Part shown: positions 6,276-16,435 of the stretch, in pieces
Numbering within the stretch: the first letter of the stretch is position 1
Layout of the letters: every line of letters starts with the position of its first letter
Source: a virus
IMG/VR virus record: IMGVR_UViG_3300021168_000039
Span: 1 to 53,683 of that record
Direction: 5' to 3' (one strand)
DNA length: 53,683 nt
Position numbers and translations under genes: made by a program
The notes under the pieces: model-generated
The model's database searches: none
Seen by the model: only the letters and a program-made list of their open reading frames with translations
Told to the model about the DNA's origin: nothing

Positions 6276-7049
6276 CTACTGCACGACGTTCTGGCAGCTA
6301 GGTGTCATGTGTCTGTGACGTTGTACAGCCTTCTTTGTAACACTCGGTGTCACCGTTCGCTTACTTTCAAGAAAGTCACCGTTCGGCAACACAATGTTCA
6401 CGGTGACGGGAATAGGAGCAACTACCGGGGTGATAGGTTCAGCTACAGGAGTAAGTACCAGAGGAGGAAGACAGTCTTCCATGGTGATCCCTGCGGCCTT
6501 TGCTTCCTTGGTTGCCAACAGAATCTTACATGATGCAACCGTCTGTGGTCCTGAGAAGGATCGTGCCAGCTCTCTAGCGTTGCAGCCCTTGTCGATCTTA
6601 CCACCACCGAAGGATGCGCCGAAGGCCATGGTCTGAGCACTGCCACCGAAACCCTTGAAGCAAGGCACGGTAGGCATGATGGGAGGAGTAATAGCGGACG
6701 ACACGGGAATCTTGGGGGCTTCTACCGTGGTGTTATTCGAGTTGTTGCCGTTGCCATTAGCAGACGCTGTGCTGCTGGATGAAGATGTCGCGGTGTTGGT
6801 GTTCGTATTAGTGCTTGTTACGTTGACTGGGGGAGGAGTGGGCCGTATGTGTTTGGGAGGTTCGGGACGCTCGGGTCTTTCGGGACGTTCGGGCTCATGT
6901 GTCTTGCAATTGTCGTCCCCCTTGCCGTGGTCGTCTCCCTTGCCTTCGGTCGTGGCGTGGTCTCGTGCGTCGTTGCCCTTACAGTTATTAGCGAGCGCGG
7001 GTGTACAACATAGTGCCAGCGCAATCAGAAGCATATTAAGTGTTCTCAT
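6276..7049 (-). CDS. Secreted low-complexity phage protein
   Basis: 257 residues from the ATG at 7049 (MRTLNMLLIALALCC, a classical signal peptide cut near ALA-N). After it come a charged Gly-Lys-Asp stretch, ERPERPERPEPP repeats, a Ser/Thr/Asn linker and a conserved C-terminal half: GKIDKGCNARELARSF and ASCKILLATKEAKAAGITMEDCL with three cysteines. I recall this C-terminal motif in other phages as a secreted protein of unknown function. Its place by a peptidase-type lysin suggests a role at the envelope, possibly spanin-like. That is inference. Confidence 0.65.
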   Translation of the reverse strand: MRTLNMLLIALALCCTPALANNCKGNDARDHATTEGKGDDHGKGDDNCKTHEPERPERPERPEPPKHIRPTPPPVNVTSTNTNTNTATSSSSSTASANGNGNNSNNTTVEAPKIPVSSAITPPIMPTVPCFKGFGGSAQTMAFGASFGGGKIDKGCNARELARSFSGPQTVASCKILLATKEAKAAGITMEDCLPPLVLTPVAEPITPVVAPIPVTVNIVLPNGDFLESKRTVTPSVTKKAVQRHRHMTPSCQNVVQ

Positions 7050-7063
7050 TATTTTCTCTTTTC

Positions 7064-7261
7064 TTAAGGAGCGCGATAACCTGCTCCGTTCTCCCAAGTG
7101 TCGGCTATTTTCCTGAGCAGTACTGCCGCGCCTGCGTTTCTGATGTGGCCTTTGACGACCATCTTGGCAATCACTCGCTCGTTAACTCTGGCTTCTACAT
7201 TGTAGTCTGAGGTGCCGTCCTCTTTGGTCCCAGTTGTGTTATGTGCCAGAATAATTAGCAA
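7064..7261 (-). CDS. Small conserved phage protein
   Basis: 65 residues from a TTG at 7261, supported by AGGAGG five bases upstream. The pattern LAHNTTGT...GTSDYNVEARVN...KGHIRNAGAAVLLRKIAD is familiar from phage small proteins without known function. Its ribosome site lies inside the 3' end of the upstream HNH gene, so the two are probably coupled. Confidence 0.6.
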   Translation of the reverse strand: MLIILAHNTTGTKEDGTSDYNVEARVNERVIAKMVVKGHIRNAGAAVLLRKIADTWENGAGYRAP

Positions 7262-9444: not shown

Positions 9445-9477
9445 TCTAAAATCGGTAGGGCAGGTTTGACCCTGCCC
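9445..9477 (-). terminator. Rho-independent terminator of the tmRNA gene
   Basis: Minus strand: GGGCAGG-GTCAAA-CCTGCCC, 7 bp with a 6-base loop, then TACCGATTTTAG. It follows the tmRNA tag stop codon by about 10 bases and shares loop and flanks with the hairpin at 8836-8867. Confidence 0.75.
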
Positions 9478-9486
9478 ACCCTATGG

Positions 9487-9622
9487 CTAGCGCCCTGCGG
9501 CAGCTGCCATAACCATCGGCTTTTCAGTCGCGGTTGGTTGTTACGTGTCCTTTTAACGAGGGCCACGTCATCTCGGGATGTCCACTGCTGTCTCGTAGTC
9601 GCAATCGAAACCTTTCAGGCCC
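9487..9622 (-). ncRNA. tmRNA coding piece (tRNA 5' half, PK1, tag reading frame)
   Basis: It begins at G1 (9622). The AAAGGTTTCGATTG segment occupies the place of the conserved GG(U/A)UUCGAC of tmRNA D-domains. PK1 uses 9572-9575 with 9557-9560 and 9564-9568 with 9543-9547. Resume codon GCG is at 9531-9529 with A at position -4. The tag reads Ala-Thr-Glu-Lys-Pro-Met-Val-Met-Ala-Ala-Ala-Ala-Gly-Arg, stop TAG 9489-9487. The other two frames give either no stop or a short unlikely peptide. Confidence 0.75.
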
Positions 9623-9627
9623 ATCAA

Positions 9628-9689
9628 AACGCTTCAGCGAGACCCGCTCTCCGGGTGTACGCCGGTAATGCCGTTATACCTGAAGCGTT
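9628..9689. repeat. 10-bp inverted repeat in the tmRNA intervening segment
   Basis: AACGCTTCAG (9628-9637) and CTGAAGCGTT (9680-9689) pair perfectly and start within a few bases of both mature ends (9622 and 9691). In the precursor this would extend the acceptor stem and present both processing sites to the tRNA-processing enzymes. Confidence 0.85.
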
Positions 9690-9690
9690 G

Positions 9691-9900
9691 TGGTGGACCT
9701 GCCGGTATCGAAACCGGGTCTTGCAACTCGTACCTCAGCTTCATACATCCATAACTTACGGGGCGTACGGCCCTACAGGGGAAGGGAGTTCATATCTGAG
9801 ATTTCATCTTTGCCTCACCTTAGTGCTCAGATTTCCACCAGGGCCGCTAAGCCCTCCCCCTGTAGAACCGCACGCCTCCACCATCGGCTTAACGTCGCCG
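9691..9900 (-). ncRNA. tmRNA acceptor piece (pseudoknot domain, T arm, CCA end)
   Basis: The 3' end is fixed by CCA at 9693-9691. Upstream lie a 9-bp stem (9773-9781 with 9857-9865), a pseudoknot inside it (9840-9844 with 9851-9855, crossed by 9820-9823 with 9847-9850), and a 7-bp stem (9794-9800 with 9826-9832). These are expected for the PK2-PK4 domain. The 5' end is not determined; it must lie after the stop at 9908 unless it overlaps the gene. Confidence 0.75.
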
Positions 9901-9907
9901 CGACGAC

Positions 9908-15999: not shown

Positions 16000-16124
16000 G
16001 ATTTTCCTTTCTCTAGTACTGTTTTGCAGTACAGCAGCCACTCGTGAAAGTTCTTCTCAGCCTTTGTTTTCGGGGGACGCTTGGTCAGCTTTAGTAGTTC
16101 TTTATCAACTACTTTTTGCGTCAT
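15996..16124 (-). CDS. 42-residue hypothetical protein
   Basis: ATG at 16124 overlaps the Fe-S carrier stop (ATGA), and the stop overlaps the next start. Lys-rich, with KRPPKTKAEKNFHEWLLYC. The tight coupling on both sides is the main evidence that it is translated. Confidence 0.6.
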   Translation of the reverse strand: MTQKVVDKELLKLTKRPPKTKAEKNFHEWLLYCKTVLEKGKS

Positions 16125-16435
16125 GAGTTGAAGCTCTTTCCGCAGCCACAGGTACTCTTGGCCGCTGCATTGTTGAAGACGAAGCCGGACATCTCCAGAG
16201 ACGAGACATAGTCTACTTCGCACTCAGACAGGTACATGTAGGACATGGGGTCCACGTAGACAGTGACGCCATCGAACGTGAAGACCTTGTCAGCAGGCAG
16301 AGGAGACTGGTCTTCCGGCCCGGGCTCTTCTATGAGGTATTGAAAGCCGCTGCATCCACCACCCTGCACACCTATGCGAAGCAGAGTGATGCCATGCTCG
16401 CGTAGGTATGTGCTTGCCCTCTCGGTTAGCTTCAT
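16121..16435 (-). CDS. A-type iron-sulfur cluster carrier (IscA/ErpA/HesB family)
   Basis: 104 residues, nearly the full family length. GVQGGGCSGFQYLIEE carries the first conserved cysteine (C28) and the C-terminus STCGCGKSF the CxC pair (C96, C98). VYVDPMSYMYLSECEVDYV matches the family core. A-type carriers take clusters from a scaffold to target enzymes in the cytoplasm. No scaffold or desulfurase is encoded nearby, so it would plug into the host pathway, perhaps supporting a phage Fe-S enzyme not visible here. Coupled to small membrane and helical genes. Confidence 0.9.
   Translation of the reverse strand: MKLTERASTYLREHGITLLRIGVQGGGCSGFQYLIEEPGPEDQSPLPADKVFTFDGVTVYVDPMSYMYLSECEVDYVSSLEMSGFVFNNAAAKSTCGCGKSFNS

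Follow-up and report, generated by a model that had tools for sequence, protein, structure and literature searches.

Soil phages of a clade that includes phages of Acidobacteriota carry a circularly permuted tmRNA gene

Identity and architecture of the gene

The window, by which we mean the whole stretch of DNA analysed (53,683 bases, the complete record of a soil virus of bacteria), very probably carries a working circularly permuted ssrA gene for tmRNA, which releases stalled ribosomes; the gene belongs to a soil phage clade including phages of Acidobacteriota. Using cmscan, we found that the Rfam model RF04321 (tmRNA_permuted) matches the minus strand of the window at 9750-9493 over the full model length, with 66.6 bits (E = 1e-10) against a gathering score (cut-off) of 47 bits. 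The initial annotation, which had read a circularly permuted phage tmRNA gene at this locus, thus holds on every computable point. Rfam and ARAGORN detected no standard tmRNA in the window and no tRNA near the locus. The gene occupies the gap between two same-strand genes, and the window also encodes a primase/helicase, a family A DNA polymerase, a ribonucleotide reductase, a helicase, an exonuclease and a terminase. The parts of the gene are as follows:

9762-9876 (-): stable hairpin, about 22-25 bp, which precedes P2 and may form the 5' domain of the acceptor piece (fold)
9691-9750 (-): core of the acceptor piece, with the P2 5' strands, T arm, acceptor 3' strand, discriminator and CCA (RF04321, pairing in relatives)
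9750-9745/9581-9576 (-): P2 block 3, 6 bp (sequence)
9739-9736/9590-9587 (-): P2 block 2, 4 bp (sequence)
9728-9721/9604-9597 (-): P2 block 1, 8 bp (sequence)
9717-9702 (-): T arm CCGGT-TTCGAT-ACCGG, 5 bp with the 6-nt loop TTCGAT (sequence)
9701-9695/9622-9616 (-): acceptor stem CAGGTCC/GGGCCTG, seven pairs including G3.U70 (sequence)
9694-9691 (-): discriminator and CCA, the CCA ending at 9691 (sequence)
9623-9690 (-): intervening segment of 68 nt, expected to be removed (sequence, relatives)
9689-9680/9637-9628 (-): bridging repeat, a 10-bp helix that joins the two ends of the intervening segment (sequence, pairing in relatives)
9532-9622 (-): 5' part of the coding piece, with G1 (9622), the D region, the P2 3' strands and PK1 (RF04321, sequence, relatives)
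9575-9572/9560-9557 and 9568-9564/9547-9543 (-): PK1, two interlocked stems (sequence)
9487-9531 (-): tag frame of 14 codons, with resume codon GCG (9531), ATEKPMVMAAAAGR and stop TAG at 9489-9487 (sequence, RF04321 resume-codon position)
9482-9511 (-): possible P5-like pairing around the tag end, TATGGC at 9511-9506 with GCCATA at 9487-9482 (sequence only)
9458-9477 (-): hairpin GGGCAGG-gtcaaa-CCTGCCC with TACCGATTTT behind it, which may mark the 3' end of the coding piece or act as its terminator (similarity to relatives)

The two ends that had been predicted, the CCA closing the acceptor half at 9691 and the start of the tRNA 5' half at 9622, can both be read in the sequence, as can the 7-bp acceptor stem with its G3.U70 pair, the three P2 blocks, PK1 and the 10-bp inverted repeat linking the two ends. 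A T arm is likewise present, but it is not canonical: an alternative of 4 bp with an 8-nt loop was rejected on comparison with the related phage genes L062, L064, L077 and L082, leaving 5 bp and a 6-nt loop. The 9-bp stem that had been described in the acceptor piece exists within the longer hairpin of about 22-25 bp, whereas the pseudoknot placed inside it found no support. Folding of 9746-9907 gave -75.3 kcal/mol (z -4.84), and none of 200 shuffles was as stable. This long hairpin is not universal, as several relatives have an ORF that ends immediately before P2 and leaves no room for it. At the other end of the gene, L060, L064 and L080 have a similar hairpin, followed by ACCGA.

Two checks suggested together with the initial annotation turned out negative. 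The alpha and beta lineage models did not accept the window gene, which gave no match to RF01849 (alpha_tmRNA, cut-off 50 bits) and 35.0 bits with RF01850 (beta_tmRNA), below the cut-off of 84. ARAGORN, as a tmRNA-specific finder, called five tRNAs in the window and missed the tmRNA gene at 9750-9493, probably because the T loop has 6 nt and not 7. As a chance control, the whole window was shuffled 60 times; the bare core (a 5-bp T stem, NCCA and a 7/7 acceptor stem with G3.U70) appeared 10 times in the shuffled sequences, so that the core alone is not decisive. The decisive evidence is the full-model E-value together with P2, PK1, the bridging helix and the conservation in relatives. Several features that define RF04321 are present: in 22 genes the acceptor piece lies upstream of the coding piece, and the acceptor stem and P2 co-vary; the window has G3.U70 with CCA and a resume codon with a tag frame and stop.

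Conservation and covariation in related phages

Among sequenced phages, the only close full-length relatives of the window polymerase are those of Tunturi_4 and Tunturi_3 (about 40-44% identity), both isolated on Tunturiibacter, a member of the Acidobacteriota (PMC11924767). This polymerase identity suggests that the window's own phage also infects Acidobacteriota; tRNA similarity was weak as host evidence and was set aside. Tunturi_4 and Tunturi_3 carry permuted tmRNA genes (79.2 and 63.3 bits, respectively), which are unannotated in their records, and tmRNA is unmentioned in the paper that describes these phages (PMC11924767). Further relatives were gathered by polymerase alignment, which gave 52 loci in viral contigs, and 49 records were searched with RF04321. 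The model scored above its cut-off in 26 of them; of the 18 records with a length of 70 kb or more, 16 were among these. One 108-kb record (G001) has an identical tmRNA gene. A blastn comparison of the window gene with phage records gave no match, and a search by DNA polymerase for prophage relatives in genome contigs found none.

The acceptor stem pairs at all seven positions in 22 of 22 distinct genes with 13 different sequences, whereas swapped partners average 5.5 pairs; the 5' half was placed at the best-pairing site near a TCGA motif, a choice that tends to raise pair counts, although the Rfam matches show the same motif and register. G3.U70 is invariant in all 22 genes, and CCA is encoded in every phage gene except L082. 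True P2 partners reach -24.7 kcal/mol compared with -19.2 for swapped ones, and the ends of the intervening segment -14.0 (matched) compared with -6.3 kcal/mol (swapped; 17 genes), each with a permutation p < 5e-5, under controls that preserve composition and not the kinship between genes. Kinship is an unlikely cause of the signal because the sequences are so varied. The acceptor stem, P2 and the bridging helix thus co-vary across relatives, and the bridging helix is consistent with two mature RNAs cut from one precursor. Intervening segments range from 11 to 219 nt in the phage genes, some being as short as 11-29 nt. In five genes (window, L062, L064, L077 and L082) a 5-bp T stem carries the 6-nt loop TTCGAT, and the T-stem sequence differs among them, which marks the short loop as a retained variant and not as decay.

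Tag peptides

Nearly all phage genes contain an open tag frame with an alanine resume codon (valine in two). The tags, of which those of the window, L059 and L065 were read by hand, have 10-36 residues, and many end in AA. The free C-terminal LAA of the ssrA tag is what ClpX reads. Six tags (window, L067, L077, L079, L080 and L083) end instead in AAAG[R/V/A] or AACGR, so the rescued proteins may escape ClpXP-type degradation. Different synonymous codons encode these endings among the six genes, and their persistence through such changes points to selection on the peptide. Reading a single sequence could not reveal these unusual tag ends, the 6-nt T loop, the conservation across the clade or the mismatch with the form of tmRNA in the host phylum.

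Origin of the phage gene

For the origin of the gene, we compared the phage genes with 11 alphaproteobacterial permuted genes and with standard tmRNA. The hairpin after the tag has an AACAGAA loop in 11 of 11 alphaproteobacterial permuted genes and, at the same place, in 8 of 22 phage genes, and the loop was found in no standard tmRNA that could be examined. Moreover, two phage genes, L060 (60.0 bits) and L069 (62.7 bits), the latter with an alpha-type T loop, are the only ones to pass the RF01849 cut-off. As the loop is common to phage and alphaproteobacterial permuted genes only, and as these two genes pass the alpha model, the findings fit descent of the phage genes from the permuted lineage of alphaproteobacteria better than a new permutation.

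The other origin, which concerns the history of the gene and not its function, would be a permutation that arose anew in the phage lineage from a standard tmRNA of acidobacterial type. Overall tmRNA identity amounts to 52% with the acidobacterial standard form and 45% with the alphaproteobacterial permuted form, a slight advantage for the former, and the D region TCACGGYTTCGACGG of several phages matches Acidobacteriaceae standard tmRNA. The window gene itself is without the AACAGAA loop and is accepted by neither the alpha nor the beta model, and a tree of the tmRNA ends did not resolve its deep branches. For these reasons a new permutation keeps some weight, although the shared AACAGAA hairpin and the alpha-model scores of L060 and L069 make it unlikely.

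Proposed function

From the sequence, the pairings, the conservation across the clade and the tag frame, we infer processing, charging, rescue and tag fate as follows. In the precursor, the acceptor stem would continue over a small internal loop into the helix that the two ends of the intervening segment make with each other. Cleavage by host RNase P in front of G1 (9622), together with host 3'-end processing that exposes the CCA (9691), would give two RNAs joined through P2 and the acceptor stem. The host's AlaRS would charge this product via G3.U70, and host SmpB and EF-Tu would deliver it to stalled ribosomes, which would resume at GCG and then add ATEKPMVMAAAAGR. The phage tmRNA would in this way supplement the one-piece tmRNA of the host during infection.

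The initial annotation had concluded that the phage manages ribosome rescue itself. We found no SmpB gene in the window or in 31 related phage records (32 in total), which argues against this, and Edaphobacter lichenicola M8UP30, which is related to the Tunturi hosts, does have SmpB; the phage RNA would therefore need host SmpB, as well as host AlaRS and processing enzymes. An ArfB-like gene was considered as a partner module of the phage tmRNA and rejected, since such RF-1-domain genes occur in only 3 of the 32 records and not in the window. Tunturi_4 and Tunturi_3 have such genes (L002:43946-44293 and L005:33470-33808), and the one in Tunturi_4 ends directly in front of the tmRNA gene, a hint that the two may form a module for ribosome rescue.

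It is conceivable, if rather doubtful, that this phage clade of Acidobacteriota uses a foreign (alphaproteobacterial, permuted) tmRNA whose AAAG[R/V/A] tag is no degradation signal. Such a tmRNA would compete with the degrading tmRNA of the host, releasing ribosomes while the rescued proteins are spared or sent to another fate. The phage RNA could instead be a decoy or inhibitor that titrates SmpB or blocks host trans-translation, as the tRNA-domain-only RNA of mycobacteriophage DS6A does (PMC4131195; PMC11915505). The odd tag ends and T loops would fit such a role; we nevertheless consider it improbable, as G3.U70, PK1, the resume codon and the open tag are all retained and a decoy would need none of them. 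Decay of a captured gene without function is more improbable still: the shortened T loop and atypical tag end of the window copy would be expected of it, whereas all helices carry compensatory changes, the gene is retained clade-wide in a form unlike that of the host phylum, and drift in the common tag end is mostly synonymous.

tmRNA form in the host phylum

The standard tmRNA model matches 265 of 297 Acidobacteriota genomes, and RF04321 scores above its cut-off in 10. All six of the loci inspected proved to be a standard tmRNA with a tRNA or another tmRNA in front of it, from which the model had borrowed the 3' half; the remaining four genomes also hold a standard tmRNA. With six of the ten above-cut-off loci inspected, we found no convincing permuted tmRNA gene in the 297 genomes. 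That the window match is the same artefact, a fusion by RF04321 of the 3' half of an upstream tRNA with the 5' half of a standard tmRNA, can be dismissed despite its occurrence in these genomes, since the window has no standard-tmRNA match and no nearby tRNA, and covariation across 22 genes links the acceptor strands of the two halves.

The false positives are illustrated by the Acidobacteriota genomes L217-L222, where RF04321 exceeds the gathering cut-off on a standard tmRNA that follows a tRNA, mostly tRNA-Asp. In one acidobacterial genome (L219:1264-2028) two standard tmRNA matches lie in tandem, an arrangement through which permutation by duplication would pass. Tags of Acidobacteriaceae have nine residues, for example AEPQFALAA in Edaphobacter lichenicola M8UP30. 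The two-piece form is found in phages of which at least two grow on a one-piece phylum, so that the form of the gene follows the phage and not the host.

Comparison with known tmRNAs

Phage-borne two-piece tmRNAs, mostly marine, are already known. Carriage by a phage had been called unusual in the initial annotation, but an earlier survey of phage genomes lists 53 two-piece tmRNAs, of which 50 come from marine or aquatic phages (PMC9004378). The tmRNA database holds 79 phage sequences of all forms (PMC11915505), and tmRNA has been reported in soil Bradyrhizobium phages (PMC12656738). The OM43 phage Melnitz and other marine phages likewise carry a permuted ssrA with a tag, and the Melnitz gene also has alphaproteobacterial affinity (PMC9004378). 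Those phages are marine and are associated with bacterial groups in which two-piece tmRNA is described as common (PMC9004378), whereas the phages described here are terrestrial and two were isolated on a one-piece phylum. They also differ in the 6-nt T loops and the AAAG[R/V/A] tag ends, and Rfam finds no riboswitch in the window. What is new is a terrestrial clade with a host of another tmRNA form, the conservation of T loops of 6 nt, and tags that end in AAAG[R/V/A] rather than LAA.

The phage genes resemble the alphaproteobacterial permuted tmRNA (RF01849) in gene order, the acceptor stem with G3.U70, P2 and PK1, and in 8 of 22 cases in the AACAGAA hairpin loop. In contrast, the alphaproteobacterial T loop is typically GGCGGTA and that of the phages mostly of the TTCGA type, the intervening segments measure 5-57 nt (11 examined) compared with 11-219 nt in the phages, and the window gene falls below the alpha cut-off. 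Matches of the phage genes to the betaproteobacterial model (RF01850) are weak (25-64 bits), none reaching 84. With the standard tmRNA of Acidobacteriota (RF00023) they have in common the tRNA-like and PK1 elements and, in some phages, the D region; that tmRNA is in one piece, has tags of 8-9 residues such as AEPQFALAA and lacks the AACAGAA loop.

With Tunturiibacter and its phages Tunturi_3 and Tunturi_4, isolated phage-host pairs are available in which the purpose of phage tmRNAs can be tested. For annotation there are two pitfalls: genes with a T loop of 6 nt escape ARAGORN, and the Rfam permuted model gives matches where a tRNA adjoins a standard tmRNA.

Other observations

The window encodes on its minus strand a 104-residue protein (16121-16435) that by eye resembles an A-type iron-sulfur carrier (IscA-like, with a C-terminal CGCG motif), which is unusual in a phage, and an exported-looking protein with a PERPERPERPEP repeat (6276-7097). 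Four type-P5 twister ribozyme matches lie between genes of Tunturi_4 (L003:9350-14150).
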